Origin: a virus
Direction: 5' to 3' (one strand)
DNA length: 27,343 bases
IMG/VR virus record: IMGVR_UViG_3300025120_000430
Span: 1 to 27,343 of that record
The notes under the pieces were generated by a model. That model saw nothing but the letters and a program-made list of their open reading frames with translations. It was not told the origin of the DNA and did not search any database. The position numbers and the translations under genes are program-made. Shown in pieces: positions 10,673 to 25,461 of this stretch. How positions within the stretch are numbered: position 1 is the first letter of the stretch; every line of letters starts with the position of its first letter.

Positions 10673-10869
10673 AAAGAAAACAAAGAATGCACTACTATGG
10701 CATATTAGCCACGTACAACCCATATGACGATACATGGTACGCATTTCACAATGAAGACCTATCTAAATACCTTTCAGAAAGGGACAGTATGGATTTAGGA
10801 AAAGGAGAAGATGCGCTGTCGGCTATGAATGACTATCTGTCTAAGAAGATTACTTCCGCTTTCTCTTAG
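10669..10869 (+). CDS. Hypothetical protein, 66 aa
   Basis: I use the ATG at 10669, which overlaps the resolvase stop as ATGA, rather than the in-frame one at 10651. The protein is MKRKQRMHYYGILATYNPYD onward, with a strand-rich N-terminus and a C-terminal helix (EDALSAMNDYLSKKI). No motif. Its end overlaps the convergent basic-protein gene by 20 nt. Confidence 0.55.
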   Translation: MKRKQRMHYYGILATYNPYDDTWYAFHNEDLSKYLSERDSMDLGKGEDALSAMNDYLSKKITSAFS

Positions 10870-11146
10870 GTTGTTTCTTCTTACAGCCCTTGCCCCTGGT
10901 GTTCTTATCTCCAGGCGTGTCTTTATTAGACCCAAGGTTCTTCTTGGCTGACTTTACCCTTGTTGTAGTCTTGCCGTTTTTAGTAACATGAGCAACGTGT
11001 TCATCCTTACGTAGCTTTGGCTTCCCGTTTTTCTTACGTTTAGCGTTCTCATCAGCTCTTGCCTTGTTACGGGCAGCACGTTTATCTATCTCTTTCTTGG
11101 AAGATTGAAACTTCTTGTACTCTTTTTTGTAGTTACGCTTTGCCAT
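10850..11146 (-). CDS. Small, highly basic phage protein, 98 aa
   Basis: Lys and Arg make up well over a third of the residues. The N-terminus KRNYKKEYKKFQSSKKEIDKRAARNKAR resembles a conserved start of small basic phage proteins that are thought to bind nucleic acid. A middle GKPKLRKDEHVAHVTKNGK and a Gly/Lys-rich tail follow. It is probably cytoplasmic and disordered without a partner. It has its own promoter: TATCTTTG (11151-11158), CTTT, then ATG, so the transcript should begin at or next to the start codon. It is convergent with the 66-aa gene. Confidence 0.7.
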   Translation of the reverse strand: MAKRNYKKEYKKFQSSKKEIDKRAARNKARADENAKRKKNGKPKLRKDEHVAHVTKNGKTTTRVKSAKKNLGSNKDTPGDKNTRGKGCKKKQPKRKRK

Positions 11147-11169
11147 AAAGCAAAGATACGGTATATTTG
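11139..11169 (+). promoter_or_regulatory. Bacteroidota-type promoter for the MazG-like gene
   Basis: TTTG (11139-11142), 19 nt, TATATTTG (11162-11169), GAGA, ATG at 11174. Both boxes and the spacing match the Bacteroidota vegetative promoter. The -33 box lies within the start of the divergent gene. Confidence 0.75.
11147..11158 (-). promoter_or_regulatory. -7 box for the basic-protein gene
   Basis: On the minus strand TATCTTTG (11151-11158) is followed by CTTT and the ATG at 11146. The -7 box is perfect; I see no clear -33 TTG at 19 nt. It lies inside the region of the opposing promoter, so the two divergent promoters overlap. Confidence 0.6.
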
Positions 11170-11173
11170 GAGA

Positions 11174-11545
11174 ATGGAGAGTAACACGAGCAAGCGCATA
11201 TTCGAGGACCTTGTATCCTCAGACATCAAAGGAAAAGAGGAGTACGGTGTAACCGTAGATAGAGAAGACTACTCTAAGGGAGAATGGCTTCAACACGCAT
11301 ACGAAGAAGTTCTTGATACAGCTAAGTATCTAAAGAGGGCTTTGGATACGTCAGGAACAACATCCCCCGTTAAGGCTGCGGTAGATATTATGCTAGAGCT
11401 TGACGCTGGGCTTAATACCGAGATAGGCACAGAGACTACCCCTGCCGAGAGGATGGCATTCAAGAAAGTGTCTGTTCTGATACTTGAGAGATGCAAGCGC
11501 ATAGACCCTGAGAGGTTCGCTATTCCCAGCCAGTTTCAAGAATAG
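11174..11545 (+). CDS. MazG-like (all-alpha NTP pyrophosphatase-like) protein, 123 aa
   Basis: I start at 11174 because a perfect promoter ends 4 nt before this ATG; the longer frame from 11105 would run through that promoter. Residues 15-56 (SDIKGKEEYGVTVDREDYS, then EWLQHAYEEVLDTAKYLKRAL) match a recurrent phage block seen in MazG-like pyrophosphohydrolases. The acidic set E37...E44-E45...D48 could bind magnesium. Such enzymes hydrolyse nucleotide triphosphates, sometimes altering the dNTP pool or alarmones. A second helical part follows (VKAAVDIMLELDAG, AERMAFKKVSVLILERCK). Assignment is by motif, and the substrate is unknown. It overlaps the convergent 74-aa gene by 26 nt. Confidence 0.6.
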   Translation: MESNTSKRIFEDLVSSDIKGKEEYGVTVDREDYSKGEWLQHAYEEVLDTAKYLKRALDTSGTTSPVKAAVDIMLELDAGLNTEIGTETTPAERMAFKKVSVLILERCKRIDPERFAIPSQFQE

Positions 11546-11744
11546 TAAGAAGCATAACGAGCCTGTCGTAGTACGGCATATATGCAGCGTTCCCTGTATT
11601 AGCCTCAAGTATCTTAACGTGAGAGTTAATCATGTTGCCTACGTTTTGCACTTTAGCCTCCTTGCTCAATTGAACCTCCTGTTCATAATTTATGAACGGT
11701 AGTAGTCTTTTCTTTAATTCTTTAAAGTTCTTCGGCTTATCCAT
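11520..11744 (-). CDS. Hypothetical helical protein, 74 aa
   Basis: A helical basic protein (MDKPKNFKELKKRLLPFINYE) with a second helix (NVGNMINSHVKILEANTG). Its start lies 8 nt inside the end of the acetyltransferase gene, so the pair forms a two-gene operon. Its 3' end overlaps the MazG-like gene by 26 nt. No motif recognised. Confidence 0.65.
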   Translation of the reverse strand: MDKPKNFKELKKRLLPFINYEQEVQLSKEAKVQNVGNMINSHVKILEANTGNAAYMPYYDRLVMLLTILETGWE

Positions 11745-12204
11745 TGTATGTAAATATCATTTTATCTCTGAATCCTCTTCTTGTGTTTACAAACTTAGGC
11801 AGTGAGCATACGAGCTTGTAGTTTAGCTTAGTTAGTAGTTGTATGATAGGTTCGTTGTCACTAACGACCTCTGCGTACACATTAAGCCAACCATGCTCTA
11901 GTAGGAAGTGGCTCATTAGCATATGCCCTATCCCCTCTCTTTTACGGGATGGGTTCACACACATAGACACCTCCATGTTCTGTAGATTGCTAAACATAGT
12001 CCCTTGGAAGCCCATAACGACACCAACTATCTCTCCTCCGTCTACAGCTACGTAAACGTGGCAGCTAGGTAACATAACCGTCTTGGATATTGCCCCGTGA
12101 GCATCTACAGCGTCTATCATCATCATACCTGAATCTTCAGCGCATACTTGAACCAAGACCTCTATCCCATACCCTTCGGTTACTTTTGCTTTTCTTATAT
12201 CCAT
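11737..12204 (-). CDS. GNAT-family N-acetyltransferase
   Basis: This 155-aa protein has the GNAT acetyl-CoA fold. Residues 50-68 are strands beta2-beta3 (VYVAVDGGEIVGVVMGF) and MEVSMCVNPSRKREGIGHML (77-96) is strand beta4 plus motif A, with the pyrophosphate-binding loop KREGIG at 88-93. LNVYAEVVSDNEPIIQLLTKLNYK follows (about 107-130), the motif B region with the usual 'N...A..LY..LGF'-type end. It transfers acetyl from acetyl-CoA to an unknown amine. Phages carry such genes to modify host proteins or base-modification intermediates. It lies in the mosaic region with its own divergent spacer. Confidence 0.8.
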   Translation of the reverse strand: MDIRKAKVTEGYGIEVLVQVCAEDSGMMMIDAVDAHGAISKTVMLPSCHVYVAVDGGEIVGVVMGFQGTMFSNLQNMEVSMCVNPSRKREGIGHMLMSHFLLEHGWLNVYAEVVSDNEPIIQLLTKLNYKLVCSLPKFVNTRRGFRDKMIFTYNG

Positions 12205-12256
12205 ATCATAAGTATTTGGTTGCTAATTTAGGAATAGTTTTTACATTGCAGGCGTA

Positions 12257-12288
12257 TTTGATAAAACTATATCAAAACACTAACTTTA
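12257..12288 (+). promoter_or_regulatory. Promoter for the 80-aa gene
   Basis: TTTG (12257-12260), 20 nt, TAACTTTA (12281-12288, one mismatch to TAnnTTTG), then 5 nt to the ATG at 12294. It fits the leaderless pattern of this region. Confidence 0.6.
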
Positions 12289-12293
12289 TAATT

Positions 12294-12536
12294 ATGAAAA
12301 AAGAAGGAGCAGTAAGAAACGAGGAGATAAGAGAGTTAAGGCAAAACGCTATAGATGTCTCTAAGAAAAGCTCCCCAAACCTTAACGATTTGCAGCGTGT
12401 TGTAATCGACAGGAACACGACTATCTACATTAAGGACGGTGAAGACCCGGTAGAGGCAAGGGAAAAGTTTATAGCCAAGATGCAGGGGAGGAAATATAGC
12501 ATACACTACAAAAACTACGATGTAGGCGATGACTGA
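12294..12536 (+). CDS. Hypothetical protein, 80 aa
   Basis: Started at the ATG at 12294, 5 nt after a -7 box; the longer frame from 12090 lies antisense to the acetyltransferase and is rejected. The protein MKKEGAVRNEEIRELRQNAI is charged and helical, then has strands (RVVIDRNTTIYIKDGED) and a C-terminal RKYSIHYKNYDVGDD. No motif. It overlaps the next gene by 8 nt. Confidence 0.65.
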   Translation: MKKEGAVRNEEIRELRQNAIDVSKKSSPNLNDLQRVVIDRNTTIYIKDGEDPVEAREKFIAKMQGRKYSIHYKNYDVGDD

Positions 12537-12738
12537 TGAATTGAAGATGTCCTTATTGAACGAACTTATGTTTGGATTAGATGTCTGTAATCACGAGCAT
12601 CACGAGGAGATAATGTTCCTGCACGACTTTGGATTTGTAAAGGTCTACGATGAGGACTTACAGTTTACAGCTACTACGGAGGAGGGAGTATTGGAATTAA
12701 AAAGGCTAATAAAACTTTATTTTGTATTCTTAAATTGA
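12529..12738 (+). CDS. Hypothetical acidic protein, 69 aa
   Basis: A helical acidic protein (MTDELKMSLLNELMFGLDVC) with a His-rich piece NHEHHEEIMFLHDFGF and a strand-helix end (TATTEEGVLELKRLIKLYF). The shape, with a short 'E..L..L...G' helix, could be a small winged-helix-like module, but I cannot confirm it. It is the second gene of a two-gene unit ending at the terminator at 12797-12828. Confidence 0.6.
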   Translation: MTDELKMSLLNELMFGLDVCNHEHHEEIMFLHDFGFVKVYDEDLQFTATTEEGVLELKRLIKLYFVFLN

Positions 12739-12796
12739 ATGTCTAAATTTGTTGAAAGTATTCATCGCTTTTGTTTTTGTTGTTTATCATGTTTAG

Positions 12797-12828
12797 AAGC
12801 CCTAGCTATCCGCTGGGGCTTTTTTTTA
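12797..12828 (+). terminator. Rho-independent terminator
   Basis: Stem AAGCCCTAGC / GCTGGGGCTT (10 bp, one G.T pair) with loop TATCC, then a T-run. It ends the 12294-12738 unit. The next gene's -7 box (12827-12834) overlaps its end. Confidence 0.85.
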
Positions 12829-12834
12829 TATTTA
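12827..12834 (+). promoter_or_regulatory. -7 box directly after the terminator
   Basis: TATATTTA (one mismatch to TAnnTTTG) is followed by CATT and the ATG at 12839. No clear -33 TTG at 19 nt upstream, where the terminator stem lies. Confidence 0.45.
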
Positions 12835-12838
12835 CATT

Positions 12839-13246
12839 ATGATACCTAGAAAGAAAAAAACGTGCAAGGAGTGTAGTCAAGAGGAGTACATATTCAGCAA
12901 AGGAAGATGTAAGAGGTGCGCTTCTAAGTCATACAAGAAGCCTGGACCGTCTAAGAACGTAAAGGAGAAGATAGACCTTGACACAGCCTTCTACAAGGAG
13001 ATATGGTCAGAAAAAGCACACTACTGCGAGGAGTGCGACAAGGATTTAGGTAGTAAGTGGGAGAGATATATGTTTTCTCACATTTTATCTAAGGGTTCAC
13101 AACCAAAACTTAGACACAATAAAGATAACGTCAATATTCTGTGCCTGGAGTGCCATCAGAGGTGGGAGTTTGGTGATAAAAAATCTATGAAGATATACCC
13201 TGCTAACGAAAAAATGATACAGCTTCTAAAGCTAAGTATTTCTTAA
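12839..13246 (+). CDS. HNH/NinG-like zinc nuclease domain protein
   Basis: This 135-aa protein starts with a zinc ribbon C9-x2-C12...C24-x2-C27. The second half (62-115) has C63-x2-C66, MFSHILSKGS with H81, RHNKDNVNILC with N99, and LC102LECH106. This is an HNH-type treble clef with two Cys pairs and H...N...H catalytic positions. The two-part layout (N-terminal Cys ribbon, then a Cys/His nuclease core after FYKEIWSEKAHYC) resembles the NinG/Rap recombination proteins of lambdoid phages. It likely cuts or binds branched or damaged DNA. Its own -7 box lies 4 nt before the ATG. Confidence 0.65.
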   Translation: MIPRKKKTCKECSQEEYIFSKGRCKRCASKSYKKPGPSKNVKEKIDLDTAFYKEIWSEKAHYCEECDKDLGSKWERYMFSHILSKGSQPKLRHNKDNVNILCLECHQRWEFGDKKSMKIYPANEKMIQLLKLSIS

Positions 13247-13261
13247 TCAACTTATTTTCAG

Positions 13262-13269
13262 TAACTTAG
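13262..13269 (+). promoter_or_regulatory. -7 box upstream of the 68-aa gene
   Basis: TAACTTAG (one mismatch to TAnnTTTG) with an 18-nt leader to the ATG at 13288. The 18-nt gap equals that of the terminase gene. No clear -33 box. Confidence 0.4.
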
Positions 13270-13287
13270 CGTTTAAAGAACACAGAA

Positions 13288-13494
13288 ATGGATAAGAAAT
13301 TATGGAATGTGGTTTATTTTAACCGTCCTGACGTACATAAAACCCTTGTTTGGAGCGATGGTAAGCGTTACTTTGATGGATTCTTAGGTTCAGACAATTC
13401 AGTGTACAGAAAAACATCAGGAACTCCAGTAGAGGAGCCTAACGCTGTATATTGGACGGAAAAACCTTTTAATGCTTCAGACGATCAAGAATAA
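13288..13494 (+). CDS. Hypothetical protein, 68 aa
   Basis: A small protein rich in aromatic and charged residues (MDKKLWNVVYFNRPDVHKTLVWSDGKRYFDG), with strands and an acidic end (NASDDQE). No family recognised. It has an A-rich leader and overlaps the convergent gene at 13477 by 18 nt. Confidence 0.6.
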   Translation: MDKKLWNVVYFNRPDVHKTLVWSDGKRYFDGFLGSDNSVYRKTSGTPVEEPNAVYWTEKPFNASDDQE

Positions 13495-13695
13495 ATCTTC
13501 AGTCCAGCACTTCGGTTTATAGTCGCTTTCAAACTCCCCAAGGACAAATCCTCTGGAGAGCCAAAACTCTTTTCCTTCTTCGTCAGGGTCTTCGCAGAGA
13601 AATATCTCAATATCCTCTCTCTCTTCGTGAGTCTTCAGGATAAAGATAGTCCCTGGAGTCATCCACATGAAACTTTTTTGTAATATTGCAGTCAT
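13477..13695 (-). CDS. Hypothetical protein, 72 aa, starting at the shared CATG
   Basis: I start this gene at 13695 because TTG (13728-13730), 19 nt, TATATTTG (13701-13708) and TCTCC lead straight to that ATG. The longer frame from 13722 would cover the promoter. The product MTAILQKSFMWMTPGTIFIL continues with an acidic strand region (EEREDIEIFLCEDPDEEGKEFWLSRGF). No known motif. Its start codon overlaps the plus-strand start at 13694 in one CATG. It is convergent with the 68-aa gene. Confidence 0.65.
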   Translation of the reverse strand: MTAILQKSFMWMTPGTIFILKTHEEREDIEIFLCEDPDEEGKEFWLSRGFVLGEFESDYKPKCWTEDLFLIV

Positions 13696-14026
13696 GGAGA
13701 CAAATATAGCACAAGCTTTCATAGAAGCAATAGATTATTCGCACGTAAAACACATTATTAGGTCAAATAAGAGCATAAAAGCCTATTGGGGTGGCGTAAC
13801 ACCGTCTATAGCAGACTTAAAGCGTGTAATAAAGAATATGTGGGCAAGAGTGTCCAAGCACGAATCAGCCGAAGACTGCGTGAATGGAATCGTAATGATA
13901 AAAGACGGAAAGAAAGTTAGGATTGATTTTCTTTATCTTTCTTATTCTTCACAAATGGAAGAATCTTCACAGCATAGTGAGGAAGGGTGTTCGCAAGATT
14001 CTGAGCGTGAGATAAAATCTTCTTAG
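13694..14026 (+). CDS. Hypothetical protein, 110 aa, starting at the shared CATG
   Basis: The start at 13694 follows TAATATTG (13681-13688, one mismatch) and CAGTC; the extra 9 codons upstream are inside the opposing gene. The first 75 residues look like a normal protein (METNIAQAFIEAIDYSHVKH, then WGGVTPSIADLKRVIKNMWARV). The last 37 are Ser/Glu-rich (EESSQHSEEGCSQDSEREIKSS) and overlap the opposing 57-aa gene by 110 nt, so the true 3' end may be shorter or both frames are used. No family recognised. Confidence 0.55.
   Translation: METNIAQAFIEAIDYSHVKHIIRSNKSIKAYWGGVTPSIADLKRVIKNMWARVSKHESAEDCVNGIVMIKDGKKVRIDFLYLSYSSQMEESSQHSEEGCSQDSEREIKSS
13701..13730 (-). promoter_or_regulatory. Promoter inside the opposing gene
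   Basis: On the minus strand TTG (13728-13730), 19 nt, TATATTTG (13701-13708), TCTCC, ATG at 13695. Both boxes are perfect matches at canonical spacing, and the promoter lies within the coding sequence of the plus-strand gene. Confidence 0.7.
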
Positions 14027-14090
14027 ATTCCTCCGTTACATCGTATTTGATTACGATCTTCTTTTTTTTTGAGTTGACTTTGATTTCCAT
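13917..14090 (-). CDS. Small basic protein, 57 aa
   Basis: Started at 14090 (MEIKVNSKKKKIVIKYDV) rather than at 14126, because the later ATG lies 16 nt after the phosphoesterase stop and does not overlap it. The product has an N-terminal strand pair, a helix (EESKKILSHAQNLANTLPHY) and a basic tail (KNKKDKENQS). It is the second gene of a leftward pair. It overlaps the plus-strand gene by 110 nt. Confidence 0.5.
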   Translation of the reverse strand: MEIKVNSKKKKIVIKYDVTEESKKILSHAQNLANTLPHYAVKILPFVKNKKDKENQS

Positions 14091-14106
14091 GATTAAAAAT
14101 AATAAA

Positions 14107-14820
14107 TTATAAATCCATCTTAACATTTAACGCTGTGTGACCACCGATTACAACACCGCAAGCAATAGCCTCCTTCTTTCCACCTTGCATATACCCCATA
14201 GCGTAACTTTTAGAGTCTATCCCACAACCTACCTGCATAGCAAACAATGCAGCGAACTTACCAAAGAACCACTCCACATACATTTGAGTATGGAAGTGAC
14301 CTGACACCGTTGAAACCATATCTCGTTTTGTGGCTGTCCTTGCGTTGCTACTCTTATCTCCGTGGATGTATCTAACGTCATCAAAATATACTTCAGTAAC
14401 AAAATTCCACTTTGGAGTCTCTAACACCTCACTAAACTCTTTAATCCATTTGCTTGGTATGTTTGAGGTCTGCGCTTTACGTATTATTATTCTGTCGTGG
14501 TTACCCAGCGTGACATCAGCGTTCGGAAACGCCTTGTACCATTTACTAACCTTTTTAATCGCTAAGTCAAGCTCTGCCTTACCGCCCATTCCGTCCGAAT
14601 CAGTCTCGTGATAGCTTGAATAGTGATTATCTATAATATCACCAATAAAAACCACCTTGTTGCAGTTGTACTTTGCGTATGTTTCTTTACAGAATCGAAG
14701 ATATCCTTTGAGGCAGAACGGCTCGTGCAGGTCTCCTATAACCAACACCCTGTTCTCATCCTTGGTAATATTCTCAAACGCTGCTAATCTGTTCCCTTTT
14801 AATCTTGGTCTTTGTTCCAT
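14107..14820 (-). CDS. Calcineurin-like metallophosphoesterase
   Basis: All five metallophosphoesterase blocks are present: VIGDLHEPF (D30, H32), FIGDIIDN (D61, D64), TLGNHDR (N107, H108), YIHGD (H153), and SGHFHTQM (H175, H177). Together these form a dinuclear metal site that hydrolyses phosphate esters. The 237-aa length is typical of phage members, and it has no signal peptide. Possible substrates include nucleotides, RNA 3' ends or phosphoproteins; the sequence does not decide. A -7 box TATATTAG lies 4 nt before the ATG, just after the terminator of the nuclease gene. It heads a two-gene unit with the 57-aa gene. Confidence 0.85.
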   Translation of the reverse strand: MEQRPRLKGNRLAAFENITKDENRVLVIGDLHEPFCLKGYLRFCKETYAKYNCNKVVFIGDIIDNHYSSYHETDSDGMGGKAELDLAIKKVSKWYKAFPNADVTLGNHDRIIIRKAQTSNIPSKWIKEFSEVLETPKWNFVTEVYFDDVRYIHGDKSSNARTATKRDMVSTVSGHFHTQMYVEWFFGKFAALFAMQVGCGIDSKSYAMGYMQGGKKEAIACGVVIGGHTALNVKMDL

Positions 14821-14824
14821 TCCG

Positions 14825-14852
14825 CTAATATAAACATTTTAAAAAAAACAAA
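14825..14852 (-). promoter_or_regulatory. Promoter of the phosphoesterase gene
   Basis: On the minus strand TATATTAG (14825-14832, one mismatch) then CGGA and ATG. TTTG at 14849-14852 is 16 nt away, short for a -33 box, and it is also the first part of the preceding terminator's T-rich tail. Confidence 0.5.
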
Positions 14853-14877
14853 GGGGCAGTACCCGAAAGCACTACCC
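14837..14877 (-). terminator. Rho-independent terminator of the nuclease gene
   Basis: On the minus strand GGGGTAGTGC pairs with GTACTGCCCC (10 bp, two G.T pairs) around TTTCGG (14853-14877), followed by TTTGTTTTTTTT. It lies 53 nt past the nuclease stop at 14930. The U-tract continues into the next promoter. Confidence 0.8.
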
Positions 14878-14929
14878 CAAGGAAGGAGAAAGGAACACAA
14901 CAAAGATAATAAAAATAACAACGTAAAAA

Positions 14930-15376
14930 TTACGCTATCTTTTTGAATATGCAGACTGACTTGGGAACTCTATAGAATTTATCCATCCCCATCCTGTCTG
15001 ATGTGTTTACGTTTACGTTTTCTATGTACTCATCTTTAAATATCCAGCTTGAGTGTGCTATTATTGCATAACCCGTGCTTGGACACAGTATAACATACCA
15101 AAAGGGGGTGTCTTTCCATTTTGCCTTTCTCGCTAAAAAGGAAACCGTATCAAATCGAAATGACTGCCTACTCGTGAAGCTTATATTAGATTTCACCTCT
15201 GCCTCAAACAGCAAAGTCTTCCCCTCCTTCTCCGCCTCTATGTCCACCCAATAGTCCTCTTCTTTGTCGACTATAGAGTATCCTTTTTTCTCAAGCCATT
15301 TACTAACAGCCTCTACAGCTATAGCGTTATTCTTATCGTATGAAGACTTAACGAAGTCGGATGGTTTTTTATTCAT
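14930..15376 (-). CDS. PD-(D/E)XK-like nuclease, 148 aa
   Basis: The core signature is YWVDIEAEKEGKTLLFEAEVKS: Asp45, then E60-V-K62, with Glu58 as an additional acid. It spans a beta-hairpin as in PD-(D/E)XK nucleases (type II restriction enzyme, VRR-Nuc and resolvase folds). An N-terminal helix (NAIAVEAVSKWLEKKGY) precedes it, as usual in this fold. Residues 91-125 add strands (FWYVILCPSTGYAIIAHSS). It probably cleaves DNA, but substrate and host are unknown. The promoter TTTG (15408-15411), 19 nt, TAAGTTAG, CCAA, ATG makes it a leaderless single-gene unit ended by the terminator at 14837-14877. Confidence 0.6.
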   Translation of the reverse strand: MNKKPSDFVKSSYDKNNAIAVEAVSKWLEKKGYSIVDKEEDYWVDIEAEKEGKTLLFEAEVKSNISFTSRQSFRFDTVSFLARKAKWKDTPFWYVILCPSTGYAIIAHSSWIFKDEYIENVNVNTSDRMGMDKFYRVPKSVCIFKKIA

Positions 15377-15380
15377 TTGG

Positions 15381-15411
15381 CTAACTTATAAAATACTTAT
15401 GTTAAATCAAA
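15381..15411 (-). promoter_or_regulatory. Promoter of the nuclease gene
   Basis: On the minus strand TTTG (15408-15411), 19 nt, TAAGTTAG (15381-15388, one mismatch), CCAA, ATG at 15376. Confidence 0.65.
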
Positions 15412-15415
15412 TACC

Positions 15416-15423
15416 TATTTTTG
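15416..15423 (+). promoter_or_regulatory. -7 box of the terminase gene
   Basis: TATTTTTG (perfect TAnnTTTG) with an 18-nt leader to the ATG at 15442. No clear TTG at 19 nt upstream. It is divergent from the nuclease promoter 5 nt away, so the two may compete. Confidence 0.55.
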
Positions 15424-15441
15424 TAACAAAGAGCAATATTA

Positions 15442-17379
15442 ATGACCAAAGGGAAGGGTCCTGAAATAATCATAAACGGCAAACCAAAGCCACCAAAGTT
15501 TGTTTACGAAGGCAAGCCTAAGGGTATGTCGAAGGCTGAAGAAGCCAAGTGGTGGCTGCAAGAGCAGGAAAGATGGGTGGAAGGACACGCAGGTCTAAAG
15601 GGGCTTCATTACTTCTACCTAACTCAAGTTAAGATTAAGCAGCCGAGAGGTAGCCTTATTCTACCATGGTGGAGAGAGGTAGACGAGTTTGTTATTGACG
15701 AATACTACGAGGCTACAAGGCTTGGGCTAGACATCTGCATATACAAGAGAAGGGGTATAGGTCTTTCGGCTCTCTTTGGTGCTGGAGTTCCGCTTTGGAA
15801 GGCTATGACCGAGCCAGGTTCGACATCACTCCTAACGTCTAACAATAGAAGCAAGACAGAGAAGCTATTCAACGAAAAGCTTGCTGTAGCATACGCAGGT
15901 CTTGATGAATGGATAAGACCAGAGAAAAAGTCCCAGAGACTTACCGGTTATATGACCATAGACATAAAGGACAACACAGGTCTTACATCTGGCAATAACT
16001 CAAACATTCTTGCAAGGCAGACATCTGACAGTAGAAAAGATGCGGCTAACTTTGAATCTGAGAGAGCAAACCACGCATTTATTGATGAGCTGTTCTTACA
16101 CGATTACGCATCAGAGGTACGTCAGTCAATACAAGCCTGTCTTCAGGATGACTTTGAAAAGATAGCACCCGTTGTGTTCGGTGGGTCTGCTGGTATTGTC
16201 TCTGACGATGGTATCAAAGAGGCTGAGTTGATGTGGAAGAATGCATCAGAGATGAATGTCAGGACTGTGTTTATACCTGGAACAAGAGGCGTTAGTCGTG
16301 CGCCAGAGTACGATGAAAACGGAAAACAAACAGGTAGGCTTTACAACTTCTGTCCGAACGGATGGGACGATAAAGAGGGAGCCGCTGAATGGATTTCCAA
16401 GCGTAGAGAGTACCTTGATAATTCAGATGACAAGAGGGACTTAATTGGGTTTATAAAATCATACCCAACCGAAATCAACGACATCTTTGAGATGAATAAT
16501 GTTGGTATCATTCCCGAAGACATACTGCCAAAGATAAACGCACAGAAGAAAAGAATAATAGCCAATCCAAGACCCGTAAACACGTACACTTTAACAGAGC
16601 AAGGCGGAAGGGTTATAGCTGTAGCCAATCCCAAGGGTATGTTTACTATACTTGAGCATCCAGTTCAAGGAGAAGAGTACAGGGCTGGGACTGACCCTAT
16701 ACCTATGGTAGACACAGACGGCATGGACACTAAGAAGGCGTTAAAAACAGGTAAGCGTTCTGTTCATTCCACGATAGTCAAACGCCCAAGCACACAAGAA
16801 TACGTTGCCTACTATCAGCGAAGAACCAACGACCCTATTACCATATACCAAGAGACTATGATGCTACAGCGTTACTACAACGACTGTAAGAATATGATTG
16901 AGCGTAACGAGGGAAGGGTTCTTATCGACCAGTATAGGCAGGGGGGTGCGTGGGCTTACCTTGCGAGTCAGCCTATTATAACGGGTGCTAAGTCATTTGA
17001 CAGAAAGGCTGCAAAAGGCTTCCACAAGGACAGGTGGAATAGGGATACTATATATAATTTCTTCTTTGAGTATCTAAGAACTCACTCAGATAAGATATGG
17101 ATGCTTGAGATAATAAATCAGCTTCCTGACTTCCACGTAAATAACACCGACCTTTTGGATGCACTTGTGTCTTGCGAACTGTACGATAGGGATGAGTATA
17201 AGAAATCCAACAAGAAAGTATCAGTAAAATACAAAGAGGTAAGCTACATAACTACCGATGAATCAGGTCGTAGGGTGACAAAGTGGCAAAAAATACCGAT
17301 ATTTGAAAACGGTGGAGAATTACCCGATAGAAATAGCGTAAATACATGGAACACAAGAACGCCAAGGGAAGAAGTGTGA
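15442..17379 (+). CDS. terL: Terminase large subunit
   Basis: This 645-aa protein has an N-terminal ATPase and a C-terminal RNase H-type nuclease. The ATPase shows a Walker A-like CIYKRRGIGLSA at 99-110 and Walker B HAFIDELF at 211-218 (Asp215, Glu216), then a coupling region (VVFGGSAG, 244-251). The nuclease has YRAGTDPI (Asp418), RVLIDQYRQGG (Asp496) and NTDLLDALVS (Asp570/Asp573) as the acidic triad. The length and order match large terminases that translocate and cut phage DNA during packaging. No separate small terminase gene was recognised nearby. It is the first gene of the structural module, and a small gene overlaps its end by 34 nt. Confidence 0.9.
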   Translation: MTKGKGPEIIINGKPKPPKFVYEGKPKGMSKAEEAKWWLQEQERWVEGHAGLKGLHYFYLTQVKIKQPRGSLILPWWREVDEFVIDEYYEATRLGLDICIYKRRGIGLSALFGAGVPLWKAMTEPGSTSLLTSNNRSKTEKLFNEKLAVAYAGLDEWIRPEKKSQRLTGYMTIDIKDNTGLTSGNNSNILARQTSDSRKDAANFESERANHAFIDELFLHDYASEVRQSIQACLQDDFEKIAPVVFGGSAGIVSDDGIKEAELMWKNASEMNVRTVFIPGTRGVSRAPEYDENGKQTGRLYNFCPNGWDDKEGAAEWISKRREYLDNSDDKRDLIGFIKSYPTEINDIFEMNNVGIIPEDILPKINAQKKRIIANPRPVNTYTLTEQGGRVIAVANPKGMFTILEHPVQGEEYRAGTDPIPMVDTDGMDTKKALKTGKRSVHSTIVKRPSTQEYVAYYQRRTNDPITIYQETMMLQRYYNDCKNMIERNEGRVLIDQYRQGGAWAYLASQPIITGAKSFDRKAAKGFHKDRWNRDTIYNFFFEYLRTHSDKIWMLEIINQLPDFHVNNTDLLDALVSCELYDRDEYKKSNKKVSVKYKEVSYITTDESGRRVTKWQKIPIFENGGELPDRNSVNTWNTRTPREEV

Positions 17380-17561
17380 GGTGGATTGGTAGGGATGGTA
17401 ACGACAAGACAGGTGAGTTCCTTGCGATTGGTTATAGAGGAGATATAAATAACGGATTAAACACTTACGCAATAGTAATAAGACACATTGATGGAAGAGT
17501 ATTTGAACTTCCTTTAGCCGCTTTAAAATTCATAACAGATGATACTGGACAACAGTCATAG
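17346..17561 (+). CDS. Hypothetical protein between terminase and portal, 71 aa
   Basis: A small beta-rich basic protein: RSVRWIGRDGNDKTGEFLAIGYRGDINN looks like an SH3/KOW-like barrel. It overlaps the terminase end by 34 nt and the portal start by 23 nt. A GTG at 17376 would reduce the first overlap to a GTGA junction, so the true start may be there. No family recognised. Confidence 0.55.
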   Translation: MEHKNAKGRSVRWIGRDGNDKTGEFLAIGYRGDINNGLNTYAIVIRHIDGRVFELPLAALKFITDDTGQQS

Positions 17562-19827
17562 CAACGAGATAGTTTACGATAGACCCGATAGCTATTTTGA
17601 CAAGAAAAAAATAGAAGAAAAGTACGGCTCTATTGAGAACTGGTACGCTCAAAATGTAAGGTTTATATCTACAAACTACAATATAGCATCAAACGTAGAC
17701 GAGGTAAAGAACGAGGGCAAGAGAAGCGTGAAAAGATGGGCTGAGTCATCTCCAGTTGACCAGATTATTAACAACTACCGATACTTCATGGGTACGCAGG
17801 AGAACTTTAACTTCGCATACCTAACAGAGGACGATAAGGGTGGCGAACTACCTGCTCCATACGTAAAGGGCGAGCAGATATACGAACTTGTAGAGTATAT
17901 GCGTGGAGGCATAAGAAAGGTACTTAACTCTACCAAGGTAGCGATAGAAAGCCTAGAGCCTTCCAAAATCTCCAAGAAGATGGAGAGAGTCCAGATGATT
18001 AAACTCAAGAAGAATCTTGCTGAGTTTTTCAACAATGCTCAAGAGAAGTATGGTATGGGCTTCTTTCCGGAGGGTATCGGTAATGATATCGATATGGACG
18101 AGGCTGTAGAGAATGTTATGAAGTCCCCTATCGATGACATGGAGGAGTACGGGCTTGACCTTCTGAATGACATAGTTAATAGAAATAGGCTGAAAGACCA
18201 GATGATGAGAGCCTTTACTGACTGCGCTGTAGGAAGATACTGCGGAGTGTATGTAGACGAGATGCATGGAAGACCTTACACAGAGGTTATCCCACCTTAC
18301 AATCTTATCGTTGACTTTAGTAACGACTCAGACTACAATGAAAAGGCTGAGTTCGTGGGTTGGGTATCGTTTATGACACCCGAAGAGATTTACTACCGAT
18401 ACGACCTTGACGATGAGGAAAGAGAGTTGGTGAAGGATTTATCCATTACTTCACCTGGTGCTGGATTTGAACTACTTAATCACTACAACAGTTCAAGTGG
18501 TTCTGATATTGGTTTTAATTGGTGGGGAGGACCTGACGGAAGAAACTACAGGCAGGTTGCTGTCGTTACGGGATTTTGGATTACAGAGGTTTCAGATGAC
18601 AAGAAAGTTAAAAAGGGCAAGAAAGGTGGTAAGGATGTAACTCCAATCCACGGGAATGACTCAGAGCGTTACAGTTACCTAAGAATAGACAGAGCCACAG
18701 TCATAGGCAATGCTATTATTACGGATTACGGTCAGGACTACAACGTAGTGTATGACTCTATGAACCCAAGCAGACCAATGCTACCTGTCCGTACATTTAT
18801 CCCTAATATGATGATGGGGATGAATCGCTCTGTCGTTGACAGGATGAAAAAGCTACAGGACGATATAGACGCATACGAGTACAAGATACGTCAGAACATC
18901 GGTAAAGACCTTGGTAAGGTCTACCTTATTAACGGACATAAACTTGGAGAGGGAGATACTGTACGGGAACTTGTAGCCAACTTAAAGAAGTACGGTATGC
19001 ACGTTACAGATGGTTCTGATGGAGAAGACCCTAACGTACTTGACGGACAGAGAATGGTTGAGACTGTCGATATGACGCTTGACCAAAACGTAATTCGTTA
19101 CACACAGTTGATTCAGGAGAAGGAGCGAATGATGAAAGAGATTATCAACGCATCAAAGGTTTCTATGGGGCAGTTGACAAGCTATGTAGGTTACGGATCT
19201 CAACAGCAGTCTATCAGTCAGAACCAATTAGGCATGGCAACATACTACGATGGCTTTATGACTTACTACACGTATCTATTGCAGTATATACTTAACAAGG
19301 CTAAGATTATGTTGATGGATATGGACGGTGAGGAGGCTGCTGAAGTAATGCTGTCCGAGGATGCTATTAAGTTCTTTAAAAATACGACAGAGTTTCAGTT
19401 GGAGGACATGATGGTCAAAGTTGACGTTGAGGACGTTATCGATGAGCAGTCAAGACAGAGACTACTTACTGTTGCACAGGCTATGGCTCAGAACGCAGAC
19501 AAGACAGGCTTCGATTGGGATGACTACATCGAACTTGAGACTGCACGTACATATACTGAGCTGAAGGATAAGATGACTATGAAAATCAAGAAGCGCAAGA
19601 TGCAGCAACAACAGCAGCAGCAGATGGCTATGATGCAGCAGCAGGCGGAGGCTGAGAAGCAACGACAGTTCGCTATGCAACAGCAGCAGATGGCAGAGGG
19701 CGGCAGGAACGCAAGAGAAGAGGCTAGTCTACGCCAGAGAGCGATGCAGCCTGCTATTGACCAAGAGGCTCAAATTGCAGGGGAACAGCAGCGTCAACAG
19801 CAAGGAATGGACGGTCAGGGTGCATAG
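17539..19827 (+). CDS. Portal protein
   Basis: This 762-aa protein sits in the expected place right after the terminase. Residues about 230-300 have the portal pattern: CGVYVDEMHGRPYTEVIPPY, then NLIVDFSNDSDY, a tryptophan (VGWVSFMTPEE) and an IYYRYDLDDEE helix. A long helical wing and stem region follow (400-570). The C-terminal tail from about residue 686 is very Gln/Met-rich (MQQQQQQQMAMMQQQAEAE), suggesting a coiled-coil or disordered barrel/crown. It forms a dodecameric ring through which DNA enters the head. Assignment rests on position, size and these patterns; no catalytic motif is expected. Confidence 0.85.
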   Translation: MILDNSHSNEIVYDRPDSYFDKKKIEEKYGSIENWYAQNVRFISTNYNIASNVDEVKNEGKRSVKRWAESSPVDQIINNYRYFMGTQENFNFAYLTEDDKGGELPAPYVKGEQIYELVEYMRGGIRKVLNSTKVAIESLEPSKISKKMERVQMIKLKKNLAEFFNNAQEKYGMGFFPEGIGNDIDMDEAVENVMKSPIDDMEEYGLDLLNDIVNRNRLKDQMMRAFTDCAVGRYCGVYVDEMHGRPYTEVIPPYNLIVDFSNDSDYNEKAEFVGWVSFMTPEEIYYRYDLDDEERELVKDLSITSPGAGFELLNHYNSSSGSDIGFNWWGGPDGRNYRQVAVVTGFWITEVSDDKKVKKGKKGGKDVTPIHGNDSERYSYLRIDRATVIGNAIITDYGQDYNVVYDSMNPSRPMLPVRTFIPNMMMGMNRSVVDRMKKLQDDIDAYEYKIRQNIGKDLGKVYLINGHKLGEGDTVRELVANLKKYGMHVTDGSDGEDPNVLDGQRMVETVDMTLDQNVIRYTQLIQEKERMMKEIINASKVSMGQLTSYVGYGSQQQSISQNQLGMATYYDGFMTYYTYLLQYILNKAKIMLMDMDGEEAAEVMLSEDAIKFFKNTTEFQLEDMMVKVDVEDVIDEQSRQRLLTVAQAMAQNADKTGFDWDDYIELETARTYTELKDKMTMKIKKRKMQQQQQQQMAMMQQQAEAEKQRQFAMQQQQMAEGGRNAREEASLRQRAMQPAIDQEAQIAGEQQRQQQGMDGQGA

Positions 19828-19829
19828 TG

Positions 19830-19859
19830 TTGTAAATCAATAAATTATATATAACTTTG
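19830..19859 (+). promoter_or_regulatory. Promoter of the scaffold/capsid unit
   Basis: TTG (19830-19832), 19 nt, TAACTTTG (19852-19859), TAAA, ATG at 19864. A full match to the Bacteroidota consensus. It would drive scaffold, capsid and the 251-aa gene down to the terminator at 23261-23291, independently of terminase and portal. Confidence 0.75.
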
Positions 19860-19863
19860 TAAA

Positions 19864-21057
19864 ATGGAAGAAACGAACGAAGATGTTGTCTTAGATGACA
19901 ACAACGTGAACACTGAAGAAGAAAAGGATCAGGGTTCTTTGAATTATGATGTAGACGTATCTCTTGAGCAAGATGAGGAGCAATCCATCATCTCAAAGCT
20001 CATGGAGGACAATCCAGGCAAGGAAGAGGACGAACTCTCCGAGCAGATTGAGGAAATGAAGTCAAAGACGCTTGAGGGTAAAAAATCTCAGGCAATTGAA
20101 GACTTGAAAAGAATCGATTCTGTGAAAGAGCGTGAGGGTAACTCCGAACTTTCCGATGAAGACGCTTGGGATATTGTACTGCAAGAGAACGAAGATTCTA
20201 AGCAAGAGTCAATCTTGAAAGACCCTTTCTCTTTTAACAATGAGTCTAACAAAGAAGAACCTACAGTTACTGAGAGCCAAAAGCTTCAAGAGATGGAGCA
20301 GAAGGTTTCACAGGCAGAGGCTGTATTGAGCGACCCTCTTATCGATGGGTACTTAAAGTTTAAGCAGTCTGGTAACGGTAACTTCCGAGAGTACTTAAAG
20401 TCTTTTGAGTTAGACAAGGACTATGATGCCATGTCTGACAAGAAGGTGTACGAGATGGGTATTAAAAATCTTGACCTAACAGAGGAAGAAATTGAGTATG
20501 AGATGGATAGGTTCGATGACCTTTCTCCTGTTCAGAAAAAAATTGAAACTCGTAAGATGCGAGCAGAGATGAAATCTGAGCAAGAGTCAAGAATCAAGAA
20601 TGTTGCATTTGAGGCTAACGAACAGTCTGTCGAACAACAAAAGAGAATGCAACAGATACAGAAACAGAATCACGAGCAATTTGTGGGACTTACTAATTCG
20701 ATGAAGGGTAAGGGTTATTACGGTTTAAATCTTACCGAAGACATGACCAAAGCTATTCACGACCACGTAGTCTCAGGAAAAATAGGTTTCGTCAACCAAG
20801 ACGGTACTGTGAATGTCAATAAGATGTTTGACTTCGCTGCGTGGGACTTATACAAGAAGGATGTCCTTCAGAATAAAGTTCACCAAGGCAAGGTTAAAGG
20901 TCAAAAGGCAGAGTTTATCAAAAGGGCTGCACCGAAAAGAACGGGTTTAAAAACCACAAAAGTAGGAGGCAAATCTAATGATCACAACGCATACCTAAAG
21001 GCAAGAGGCGATGCCGCAGGCAGGAGGGGTGTAAATGGAGGGAACATTACACTTTAA
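19864..21057 (+). CDS. Probable scaffold protein, 397 aa
   Basis: Placed just before the major capsid gene. It is highly charged: an acidic N-terminus (MEETNEDVVLDDNNVNTEEE), long helical segments rich in Glu, Lys and Gln (residues 90-280, with a coiled-coil-like QEMEQKVSQAEAVL and SVEQQKRMQQIQKQ), and a basic, Gly-rich C-terminus (KRAAPKRTGLKTTKVGGK). Acidic coiled coils with a basic capsid-binding tail are typical of scaffolding proteins that guide procapsid assembly. No protease motif was seen. Its mRNA is predicted leaderless. Confidence 0.7.
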   Translation: MEETNEDVVLDDNNVNTEEEKDQGSLNYDVDVSLEQDEEQSIISKLMEDNPGKEEDELSEQIEEMKSKTLEGKKSQAIEDLKRIDSVKEREGNSELSDEDAWDIVLQENEDSKQESILKDPFSFNNESNKEEPTVTESQKLQEMEQKVSQAEAVLSDPLIDGYLKFKQSGNGNFREYLKSFELDKDYDAMSDKKVYEMGIKNLDLTEEEIEYEMDRFDDLSPVQKKIETRKMRAEMKSEQESRIKNVAFEANEQSVEQQKRMQQIQKQNHEQFVGLTNSMKGKGYYGLNLTEDMTKAIHDHVVSGKIGFVNQDGTVNVNKMFDFAAWDLYKKDVLQNKVHQGKVKGQKAEFIKRAAPKRTGLKTTKVGGKSNDHNAYLKARGDAAGRRGVNGGNITL

Positions 21058-21080
21058 TAAAAAACTAAAAGAAATCTAAA

Positions 21081-22448: not shown

Positions 22449-22476
22449 TTTATAAATCTTAAAAAACTTAGAAAAA

Positions 22477-23232
22477 ATGAATAAAGATATCGAAATCGTT
22501 TTAAACACAACTGACGTTCTTGCTGCTGCATTTGACGTAGCTGACGGTGTTGTTTCAGTAGACGGCTTTTCATTCCAATGGAAAAAAATCCAAAGGATGG
22601 AAAGAACTGCTGCTGTCAACGCTGCAACTGGATTGATCACCGTAACTCCTGCTACACCTACTCTTGGTCTTGAGTACAGATTCACTCTTGTTCAGTATGT
22701 AGCTGATGCTCGTAGAGAAATAGCTGTTAGCTATACTGCTGACGCTGCTGACGTAGTTGCTGGTGTTAATGGCATTGTAACCAAATTACAAACACTGATT
22801 ACTGCTTACGTTAGTGGTGGAAGTCTTGATGTTACTTTTGGTCCAAGTGCTTCAACTGTTCAGATTTACTCAACAGTAACTAATCCTTTGATTAATATTG
22901 GTGGGCTTCTTAACGCTGCCGCTACTCCTGCTTTAGCTGGAACTGCTGGTGTTAACATGGGGGCAATCCTTGCATCTGAAGGTGTTAAAGATTCCTTTGA
23001 CGCAACAGTTCCTACATCAGGTCTATTGTACACATCTTGGGAGTTTGAACTAATGTTGCCAAAGGGCTACGGAGGTTTTAATCACCAAACAGATGATCAG
23101 GCTGTAAGCTTAGTACTTTTCCTTGATGAGGGCGGAAGTGAATATGCAGCTTTGAATACTGAAATTCTAAATGTTTCAAATGGATTAGACCCAGACGGAA
23201 CAGCAGCAGAAGAAATCCTTGGACAGGACTAA
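22477..23232 (+). CDS. Probable virion protein, beta-rich, 251 aa
   Basis: A beta-rich Ala/Val/Thr-rich protein with no cysteines. The segment TAAVNAATGLITVTPATPTLGLEYRFTLVQY looks like an immunoglobulin-like sandwich, and the central repeat of Ala-Asp-Ala turns (YTADAADVVAGVNGIVTKL, 80-100) resembles tail-tube or decoration-protein elements. Its place directly after the capsid gene suggests a decoration, head-fibre or head-completion role. It ends the unit before the terminator at 23261-23291. No family recognised. Confidence 0.65.
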   Translation: MNKDIEIVLNTTDVLAAAFDVADGVVSVDGFSFQWKKIQRMERTAAVNAATGLITVTPATPTLGLEYRFTLVQYVADARREIAVSYTADAADVVAGVNGIVTKLQTLITAYVSGGSLDVTFGPSASTVQIYSTVTNPLINIGGLLNAAATPALAGTAGVNMGAILASEGVKDSFDATVPTSGLLYTSWEFELMLPKGYGGFNHQTDDQAVSLVLFLDEGGSEYAALNTEILNVSNGLDPDGTAAEEILGQD

Positions 23233-23260
23233 TCGCTAAGACTAATCAGTTAATTTTAAG

Positions 23261-23291
23261 AAGAGGTGGCATTTTGTCACCTCTTTTTTTT
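23261..23291 (+). terminator. Rho-independent terminator
   Basis: AAGAGGTGGC pairs with GTCACCTCTT (one G.T pair) around ATTTT, followed by a T-run to 23291. It ends the scaffold/capsid/251-aa unit, and a -7 box follows at once. Confidence 0.85.
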
Positions 23292-23298
23292 ATCTTTA
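23291..23298 (+). promoter_or_regulatory. -7 box after the terminator
   Basis: TATCTTTA (one mismatch) abuts the terminator. An ATG two nt later opens only a four-codon frame (M-L-I-N-stop, 23301-23315), and the real ATG is at 23325. No -33 TTG at 19 nt. Confidence 0.45.
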
Positions 23299-23324
23299 CA
23301 ATGTTAATTAACTAATATTTTAAA

Positions 23325-24254
23325 ATGGAAAGAGAAATTGCTGTGATAAAGCCTAAAGGCGTAAATCACATTAAACAAGCCGTAACCCTAACAGCTACCT
23401 ACAGTTTAAAGGGCAGAAACATCTCCCTAAATCAGTACGGAGAGGTAAAACCTGGAAACCTAACTACAAATAGGGGGGACATTAGATTCGCAGGAGAGCT
23501 TGCTACAGAGAGTAAAATTTTCGGTGATTCAGTAGATGAAGTGGAAGATCAAATTGATTTCTGGATGAACCACCCTATGGTTGAGGATATCAATGGTAAA
23601 GGCAAGGATAATTCAAGGTTTACTATTGAGGTTATTGCCGCTACCAAAGACAAGAAGAGAGCAAAGACTGTAAGCGTAAACCGTGTAGTGTCAACTATTT
23701 ACGGTATGTCAGAGGCTGAAAGAAAGGACGTTATGTACTTCTTTAAGCAAGACCCAAGAGACATGAACGATGATGACGTTACTTTGGAACTTGTTGATAT
23801 TGAGGGGGGTCTTCTTTTAAGAGAGCCTAACACATCAAGATTTATTGAGACATTCGGGTCGTTGAACAAGAGTTCAGTAGCTAAGAAGGTTGAGATGTTG
23901 GTGTATGTAAACAAGGGAATTGTATCTGGATTTGTTACAGAAGATGCGGAAAAGTTCTACATCGGTGATGTTCTTATCGGTAAAGATGAGGATGACATTG
24001 CATTGTTCTTCAAGGACAACCCACAGATGTATGACAACCTTGTACGTTCACTTGCTGACGGTGGTGACGATACAGCGTTCAACGAATTAAATGAGGCTGA
24101 AGATGATGACATCACTCCTGCCGAGAAAAGAGCGCACTTTACAAAACTATACAAGAAGTATAAGTTAAAGGGTAAGTTCCCTGCCGACCTTGATAAGGCA
24201 ATTGAACGAATTCACGCATACGAAGAGGAGAACGGAATAGAGTTGTCTGAGTAA
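23325..24254 (+). CDS. Hypothetical structural-module protein, 309 aa
   Basis: A charged, mixed alpha/beta protein. Residues 1-150 are basic-to-neutral with strands (NHIKQAVTLTATYSLKGRN, SRFTIEVIAATKDKKRAKTV), and residues 150-309 are acidic with helices (KIFGDSVDEVEDQIDF, FKDNPQMYDNLVRSLADGG, then AEKRAHFTKLYKKYKLKGKF). It has no cysteines or enzyme motif. Its place between capsid and connector genes suggests a head-associated or core protein. It is a single-gene unit with its own -7 box and terminator (24278-24308). Function unknown. Confidence 0.6.
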   Translation: MEREIAVIKPKGVNHIKQAVTLTATYSLKGRNISLNQYGEVKPGNLTTNRGDIRFAGELATESKIFGDSVDEVEDQIDFWMNHPMVEDINGKGKDNSRFTIEVIAATKDKKRAKTVSVNRVVSTIYGMSEAERKDVMYFFKQDPRDMNDDDVTLELVDIEGGLLLREPNTSRFIETFGSLNKSSVAKKVEMLVYVNKGIVSGFVTEDAEKFYIGDVLIGKDEDDIALFFKDNPQMYDNLVRSLADGGDDTAFNELNEAEDDDITPAEKRAHFTKLYKKYKLKGKFPADLDKAIERIHAYEEENGIELSE

Positions 24255-24277
24255 GAATTAGACACACCCTCTTTTTA

Positions 24278-24308
24278 AAGCCCTGACCTAACGGTTGGGG
24301 CTTTTTTT
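24278..24308 (+). terminator. Rho-independent terminator
   Basis: AAGCCCTGACC pairs with GGTTGGGGCTT (11 bp, two wobble pairs) around TAAC, followed by T's. Its stem base (AAGCCC/GGGCTT) is the same as that at 12797-12828. Confidence 0.85.
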
Positions 24309-24327
24309 ATGTCTGAGTAACATTGCG

Positions 24328-24335
24328 TATCTTTG
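24328..24335 (+). promoter_or_regulatory. -7 box of the connector gene
   Basis: TATCTTTG (perfect) then TTCA and ATG at 24340. It begins 20 nt past the terminator. The expected -33 position falls in the T-run (TTA rather than TTG). Confidence 0.55.
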
Positions 24336-24339
24336 TTCA

Positions 24340-25461
24340 ATGGTTACAGGATTAGATCTTTCAATATTATTCCAAGATAAGATAGACAACAGCTACTCGG
24401 ACTACGTAAGCAATGCTAAGATGCAACGTGCGTTTGACAATGCCTTCCTACGTATTATAGAGAATAAGTACCGTGGTATGGACACTCAGAAGGAGTTCGA
24501 TGAGCTGTCTGAGCTGATGGTTATCGACAAGAGGCTTCTTATAAATAACGATAGGTTTAGAACTGTCGCTGTTCCTATTGCCTCTGTAACTATAGGTACT
24601 CCTACAACTTTCACATTTGCGGCAGAGCATAACCTTGTAGAGGGCGATACCTTTACTGTATCTGATGTGTTAGGAACGCCAACAGGCGTTAACGAAACTC
24701 ACACAGTTACCGCAGTATCTATTATTTCTGATACGATTATAGAACTTGCAACCACATCTACCGGTACGGCTACAGCGAATACAGGCTCCGCTACTACTCA
24801 GCATCTATCTACGGACAGTATGCTCCCTGACTATCTACACGTATTGGCTATCAAGTCTTATATGTACGACACATCTAAAGACGGATACTCTCCATATAAA
24901 ATACAGGCAGGTACGCCTGGAGTTGTTGAGTTTTTTAGACCAAATAAAATAAGAAGCGGTGACTACGTTCATAGCGCAGATTTATCTGAAAATAACCCTC
25001 AACAATTCATCATACTTAAAAGAATAAACGAGTTCAAGTATGAGATTTACGATGCCTCTGATAGGACTATGAACACTCCTATTCCTGTTACTGTTGCCCC
25101 ACCAAACCTTTCTGACTTTGTATTAAGACCAGTTGAAGAGAATTGGGCTAAGTACCTACATAGCGATAGAAGGATATCTCAGTCAGGAAAGCCTACCGTT
25201 AATGAGCCAAGATTTAATCAGCATAAGAACTTTATCCTTATGCACCCTCAGAATGCAAGCTGCCCTTCGGTAGACGTAGACTACATCAGAAAACCTGAGG
25301 TAGTTATCGATGTTACGAACGACATCAGTAACCTAGATTTATTCTACAGTGAGACATTATTGAACAGACTTACAGATGAGGCTGTGAAGATGTTCTACCA
25401 AGAAGTACGTGACCCTAATCAGTATCAGATTGCTGATAGAGAAATGATTGATAATCCGTGA
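24340..25461 (+). CDS. Head-tail connector-type protein with a beta-insert, 373 aa
   Basis: I start at 24340, 4 nt after a perfect -7 box; the in-frame ATG at 24295 lies inside the terminator. The N-terminal 75 residues are helical (MVTGLDLSILFQDKIDNSYSDYV). Residues about 76-152 are an insertion of FCCH/Ig-like type: HNLVEGDTFTVSDVLG, then NETHTVTAVSII, DTIIELATTS. The C-terminal region resumes with STDSMLPDYLHVLAIKSYMYD and ends in helical segments. Position after the capsid and before the tail genes suggests a connector or ring protein. Its stop overlaps the next ATG (TGATG). Confidence 0.65.
   Translation: MVTGLDLSILFQDKIDNSYSDYVSNAKMQRAFDNAFLRIIENKYRGMDTQKEFDELSELMVIDKRLLINNDRFRTVAVPIASVTIGTPTTFTFAAEHNLVEGDTFTVSDVLGTPTGVNETHTVTAVSIISDTIIELATTSTGTATANTGSATTQHLSTDSMLPDYLHVLAIKSYMYDTSKDGYSPYKIQAGTPGVVEFFRPNKIRSGDYVHSADLSENNPQQFIILKRINEFKYEIYDASDRTMNTPIPVTVAPPNLSDFVLRPVEENWAKYLHSDRRISQSGKPTVNEPRFNQHKNFILMHPQNASCPSVDVDYIRKPEVVIDVTNDISNLDLFYSETLLNRLTDEAVKMFYQEVRDPNQYQIADREMIDNP

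Follow-up and report, generated by a model that had tools for sequence, protein, structure and literature searches.

The viral record IMGVR_UViG_3300025120_000430 poses a question about where its messages begin. Across this 27,343-base pair (bp) stretch of DNA (G+C content, 39.5%), which we analyzed whole and call the window, ten boxes resembling the Bacteroidota promoter element TAnnTTTG each end only 4 or 5 nucleotides (nt) before an ATG. What would a promoter accomplish by sitting almost on top of a start codon? We propose that host-type promoters are set directly on the start codon and very likely give rise to leaderless mRNAs for many first cistrons of the phage clade to which this record belongs.

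A direct reading of the window located all ten boxes of the original prediction with the spacings that it gave. The match to TAnnTTTG is perfect at five sites and carries one mismatch at the other five.

11151 to 11158, minus strand: −7 box TATCTTTG, a perfect match, then the 4-nt spacer CTTT and the ATG at 11146(−); box and spacing kept in 9/9 orthologs
11162 to 11169, plus strand: −7 box TATATTTG, then the 4-nt spacer GAGA and the ATG at 11174(+); TTTG 19 nt upstream
12281 to 12288, plus strand: −7 box TAACTTTA, one mismatch, 5 nt before the ATG at 12294(+)
12827 to 12834, plus strand: −7 box TATATTTA, one mismatch, then the 4-nt spacer CATT and the ATG at 12839(+) of an HNH-like nuclease gene
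13681 to 13688, plus strand: candidate −7 box TAATATTG, one mismatch, 5 nt before the ATG at 13694(+), inside the opposite gene
13701 to 13708, minus strand: −7 box TATATTTG, 5 nt before the ATG at 13695(−); TTG 19 nt upstream; within codons 3 to 5 of the plus-strand gene
14825 to 14832, minus strand: −7 box TATATTAG, one mismatch, then the 4-nt spacer CGGA and the ATG at 14820(−) of a metallophosphoesterase gene
15381 to 15388, minus strand: −7 box TAAGTTAG, one mismatch, then the 4-nt spacer CCAA and the ATG at 15376(−)
19852 to 19859, plus strand: −7 box TAACTTTG, then the 4-nt spacer TAAA and the ATG at 19864(+); TTG 19 nt upstream
24328 to 24335, plus strand: −7 box TATCTTTG, then the 4-nt spacer TTCA and the ATG at 24340(+) of a 373-amino acid (aa) structural-region gene

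The −33-like TTG or TTTG was likewise found as predicted at five of the ten sites, 19 nt upstream at four (11174, 13695, 15376, and 19864) and 20 nt upstream at 12294. The probability of TTG recurring at a single distance in 4/10 sites is 3.8e-5, or about 1e-3 once corrected for 28 distances. None of the left-arm genes has a box 4 to 5 nt before its start, which also agrees with the original prediction.

The spacing itself was examined in eleven related IMG/VR contigs, recovered through the capsid protein (87 to 98% identical) and read wholly or nearly so; with the window, these make 12 contigs. Perfect boxes in front of the ATGs of called open reading frames (ORFs) lie 48 times at a distance of 4 nt and 13 times at 5 nt. 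The runner-up distance, 18 nt, accounts for 8 cases, and every other distance up to 30 nt accounts for at most 4. A test that is independent of called starts drew on 44 families of orthologous ORFs present in at least four genomes, with the start codon taken as the one common to most members. A perfect box stands 4 or 5 nt ahead of this codon in 6/44 families (mean, 0.05, and maximum, 2, in Markov-shuffled versions of these upstream sequences), and a box with at most one mismatch does so in 10/44 (mean, 0.93; maximum, 5). The original prediction had expected a genome-wide peak at this spacing, and among the relatives the peak emerges both from the 12 contigs and from the ortholog-defined starts. 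When annotation is set aside altogether, an ATG follows 4 or 5 nt after 25 nonredundant boxes against 11.6 expected (p=4e-4), a count whose significance is modest, since boxes in coding DNA are for the most part accidental. Among ORFs of at least 60 aa that open 4 nt after a perfect box, 48 begin with ATG and none with GTG or TTG. The 4- or 5-nt spacing is not due to chance. A sigma-70 promoter scan of the same region was uninformative (36 matches versus 29 in shuffles).

Conservation among the relatives separates strong sites from weaker ones. At 11146, 11174, 13695, 19864, and 24340, the box, its spacing, and the ATG are retained in every ortholog found (9 to 11 sequences per site), while the proteins are only 42 to 99% identical and the 4-nt spacer differs (GAGA, GAAA, AGAT, AATA, ATAC). 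The box keeps its distance in 11/11 orthologs of 19864 and is identical in 10/10 orthologs of 24340. At 12294 the box (TAACTTTA) is found in 8/10 orthologs compared and, allowing at most one mismatch, in 76% of family members; at 12839 (TATATTTA) the arrangement holds in 62% of the family and is lost in three relatives (G003, G009, and G011). The one-mismatch box of 13694 is constant across relatives and is located in the opposite gene. The arrangement at 14820 and 15376 is common only to the closest relative, G001. An unrelated phage lineage (L119:9995) also has the metallophosphoesterase gene of 14820, and there a perfect TATATTTG stands 4 nt ahead of it. Predicted leaderless transcription is well supported at 7 to 8 of the ten sites that the original prediction named; it is less secure at 14820 and 15376, shared with a single relative, and at 13694, where the box is imperfect and inside another gene.

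How would such an arrangement operate? Many transcripts of Flavobacterium johnsoniae begin 4 or 5 nt downstream of the −7 element, whose G occupies −5 (PMC6847099); the 4-nt spacing seen here would therefore put the first transcribed nucleotide (+1) on the A of ATG. By the same measure, a 5-nt spacing would give a leader of 0 to 1 nt. The boxes would thus act as housekeeping-sigma promoters of a Bacteroidota host, TAnnTTTG forming the −7 element with TTG sometimes about 19 nt further upstream, and RNA polymerase would start at, or within 1 to 2 nt of, the A of ATG. Ribosomes would then bind the 5′-terminal AUG without Shine-Dalgarno or leader contacts, presumably by 70S-type initiation. Genes with leaderless promoters would be first cistrons that either diverge from a neighbor or directly follow a terminator, and genes further down the operons would rely on A-rich leaders of the ordinary kind. 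What the phage probably gains is compactness: two promoters of one divergent pair would fit into 27 bp, and a single CATG would serve another pair.

The divergent pairs are the most compact expression of this layout.

10850 to 11146, minus strand: gene for a 98-aa Lys/Arg-rich protein with no Pfam match, predicted leaderless; it lies on the left of the divergent pair
11174 to 11545, plus strand: gene for a 123-aa protein, predicted leaderless; it lies on the right of the divergent pair, with start and box kept in 17/17
13693 to 13696, both strands: CATG palindrome that forms the start codons of 13694(+) and 13695(−), kept in 10/10 phages compared
L165:3390-3422, L167:242-274, L176:2482-2514, and L170:4922-4954: 33-bp divergent module in unrelated viral contigs

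Only 27 bp separate the start codons of 11146(−) and 11174(+), and both boxes lie within this gap. With promoters that abut their ATGs, 27 bases of DNA would suffice to fire two genes that point away from each other. These back-to-back elements are conserved and have the layout of a predicted bidirectional promoter. We scanned 2.9 million viral contigs for the module CAT-N4-CAAANNTA-N3-TANNTTTG-N4-ATG and obtained 16 matching contigs, in all of which (16/16) ORFs of at least 80 codons open at both ATGs; the same module with 6-nt spacers had zero matches across the 2.9 million contigs. Twelve of the 16 hold orthologs of the 11146/11174 pair, or at least of its 11146 half, and the other four belong to two unrelated phage types whose genes differ (L165, L167, and L176 on the one hand and L170 on the other). 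The gene pairs that flank the modules of the unrelated contigs encode a lipoprotein-like 80-aa protein with a 646-aa protein and a 208-aa protein with a 177-aa protein.

At 13694(+) and 13695(−) the two genes share one CATG and therefore have no intergenic DNA, each candidate promoter sitting within the opposite gene. Among codons 2 to 12 of this pair, those for a shared amino acid are 93 to 94% identical, compared with about 57 to 74% just further in; the corresponding figures for the terminase are 63% versus 43 to 59%. Such raised synonymous constraint fits the presence of embedded promoters. As a general module, the face-to-face CATG pattern (TANNTTTGN4CATGN4CAAANNTA) was rejected, since its 36 matching contigs mostly open short ORFs.

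The transcript context of the sites is consistent with promoters of first cistrons.

12795 to 12823, plus strand: intrinsic terminator, its U-tract extending into the 12839 box
14853 to 14878, minus strand: intrinsic terminator just upstream of the 14820(−) box
24277 to 24304, plus strand: intrinsic terminator upstream of the 24340 box
15416 to 15423, plus strand: −7 box TATTTTTG of the terminase gene, 18 nt from the ATG at 15442; a leadered internal control

Most of the predicted leaderless genes are first cistrons: six have a divergent neighbor (11146, 11174, 12294, 13694, 13695, and 15376), three follow a terminator (12839, 14820, and 24340), and 19864 begins 36 nt after the portal gene. 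The three terminators have the most G-C pairs of any in the region, and their U-tracts reach or enter the next box. At 12795 to 12839, 23258 to 23300, and 24277 to 24340, the transcript end and the next promoter nearly overlap, because the U-tract reaches or extends into the −7 box. Promoters of the same box type also occur with leaders in these phages, at 18 nt for the terminase, 26 nt for 23325, and others, the range being 18 and 26 to 29 nt. A second box type, TAnnTTAGC, is found at 12223 to 12230, 13262 to 13269, 14825 to 14832, and 15381 to 15388, ahead of genes 12204(−), 13288(+), 14820(−), and 15376(−) by 4 or about 18 nt, and may represent promoters of lower strength or different regulation.

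The original prediction went further in describing late and accessory genes as systematically leaderless, and this is too strong. In the structural region only 19864, which encodes a 397-aa acidic protein that is scaffold-like by position, and 24340 have a box at 4 or 5 nt; the terminase is leadered, and the portal, the capsid, and downstream genes have no such start and resemble internal cistrons with A-rich upstream sequence. Genes lacking a box at 4 or 5 nt favor A at positions −1 to −3 and −6 to −8, in keeping with the Kozak-like preference of F. johnsoniae, although the groups compared are small (10 and 34). Most of the predicted leaderless genes received no function from a Pfam search.

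Could something other than leaderless transcription account for these boxes? Chance combined with the picking of start codons deserves almost no weight. It might have drawn strength from the tolerance of one mismatch and from the use of internal ATGs, instead of the longest ORF, at 13694 and 13695, but orthologs back these internal starts (conserved in 16/16 and 14/14, respectively), and the ortholog-defined starts and the shuffles refute chance as a general explanation; it may still hold for 15376 alone. Ordinary promoters with short leaders, in which transcription starts a few nucleotides earlier or the true start codon lies downstream and translation is nothing special, are an improbable alternative. 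Some variation in the start site, of one or two nucleotides, is seen at any promoter, and the 5-nt sites of the window would themselves yield a leader of 0 to 1 nt. A start within the spacer, however, leaves at most 4 to 5 nt, because the −7 box ends 4 to 5 nt before the ATG, and this is too short for normal ribosome contact; ortholog N termini are moreover conserved from these very ATGs. We consider it highly improbable that the boxes are a ribosome-contact element or the operator of a phage repressor. Their near-constant distance to the ATG does recall a ribosome signal, but the same box stands 18 and 26 to 29 nt before other genes of these phages and is therefore not a fixed ribosome signal, a reading that we rejected. 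The boxes also match the known Bacteroidota −7 element and have TTG at 19 nt, terminators lie immediately upstream, and the divergent layout is palindromic.

A further alternative, compatible with leaderless transcription, is that the leaderless fraction reflects a general habit of compact Bacteroidota phages instead of a trait of this clade. The metallophosphoesterase gene led us to 78 further phage loci for comparison; neither these nor the isolates below are a random choice, and families are not fully independent. The spacing-4 class does occur among them: of families with a perfect box within 40 nt, the box is at 4 or 5 nt in 7/63 (11%), and the isolates P12024L (2/7), 11b (1/7), and B124-14 (1/11) have one or two each. 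Among the genes concerned are P12024L_31 of the Nonlabens phage and B124-14_055 of the Bacteroides phage, with the box at 4 nt, and PHG11b_43 of the Flavobacterium phage 11b, with the box at 5 nt. FCL-2 also has one (1/7), although this case and one of those in P12024L lie within annotated genes and are probably spurious. The corresponding fraction in the clade is 13/25 (Fisher p=1e-4); 2 of these 13 families look like splits of another, so 11/23 is the safer figure, the Fisher value referring to 13/25. crAss001 (0/7) and phi14:2 (0/2) have none. We consider a general habit less likely than not.

Several points nevertheless weigh against start-codon promoters and leaderless messages as we propose them. 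The relatives in the spacing counts are not independent samples, and half of the ten boxes in the window are imperfect. The start position in this host may differ from that of F. johnsoniae by 1 to 2 nt, which would leave a leader of that length; read-through from upstream operons could add leadered forms, for example, at 19864; and 14820 could be transcribed from a perfect box located 80 nt upstream. The Bacteroidota host is itself suggested by the box type and by a marker gene closest to those of Nonlabens, Tenacibaculum, Cellulophaga, and Flavobacterium phages.

How unusual would such a strategy be? The −7 box is that of Bacteroidota sigma-ABfr promoters (−33/−7, TTTG/TAnnTTTG), and its position here implies their known 4 to 5 nt to +1; TTG at 19 nt is present in 4/10 sites, and the −33 element is also weak in F. 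johnsoniae. Leaders in Bacteroidota hosts are usually 20 to 30 nt (PMC6847099, PMC7366714, PMC9723704). Our host baseline comes from published figures: the leaderless share is 5.5% in F. psychrophilum (PMC9723704), leaders are shorter than 10 nt in 3.7% in B. thetaiotaomicron (PMC7366714), and leaders are at most 10 nt in about 13% in F. johnsoniae (PMC6847099). Whereas leaderless promoters make up a few per cent in hosts, they are predicted to make up about half of the recognizable promoters here. The original prediction called this an unusual translation strategy, which is apt within Bacteroidota, but most middle and late transcripts of the Thermus phage phiYS40 are reported to be leaderless (PMC3594737). 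Both phages would place many genes on leaderless mRNA, but phylum, promoter, and phage type differ, and leaderlessness was measured in phiYS40 and is predicted here; unlike in phiYS40, we saw no sign in this phage of changing initiation factors. Phage transcripts have been remarked to be often leaderless (PMC5312081). A survey of TA-like signals at leaderless genes (PMC3160421) likewise detects a promoter box at a fixed distance from the start codon, but its signal is TAnnnT, its genomes are cellular, and many Bacteroidetes genes were scored as “atypical.” The bidirectional promoters of Escherichia coli would share with the 11146/11174 pair symmetric elements, divergent genes, shared DNA, and occupancy by one polymerase at a time; their start sites are mostly 10, 18, or 23 bp apart (PMC12825309), compared with about 27 bp here, where both mRNAs are predicted to be leaderless. 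Full-text searches of the open-access literature returned no report of leaderless mRNA in Bacteroidota phages. A bolder reading, which we consider less likely than not, is that leaderless mRNA has become the commonest form of recognizable promoter in a Bacteroidota phage lineage, complete with a 27-bp leaderless bidirectional promoter and a CATG pair that shares start codons and RNA start sites through mutually embedded promoters; this would be a phage-specific mode of translation start, possibly with a phage factor that favors it.

The phage family probably infects marine Bacteroidota. Scans of genome contigs with the capsid and the P12024L primase found no host or prophage, and INPHARED searches with the terminase and portal found no relative. 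The portal (17539 to 19827) matches phrog_6547 (E=7e-29), and the region from 26202 to 26888 matches CrAss_Ring_1 weakly, below its cutoff. Given these matches and the terminase without an INPHARED counterpart, the family may represent podoviruses with a distant relationship to crAss-like phages. A serine recombinase (Resolvase domain, E=2e-23) is encoded in the left arm at 1767 to 2468 and suggests a temperate phage or mobile element. A CATCAT-rich repetitive stretch (7490 to 7747) is located between the arms, close to where the leftward operon begins.

Shine-Dalgarno pairing plays little part in Bacteroidota translation, and leaderless mRNA tends to be set aside in this phylum as a matter of a few per cent. 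The box followed by 4 nt and an ATG provides a simple sequence rule for finding leaderless genes, and the rule corrects gene starts in such phages. The 33-bp divergent leaderless cassette would be usable as a compact two-way expression part. A clade that sets about half of its recognizable promoters on the start codon would offer natural, conserved test cases for translation initiation in Bacteroidota.

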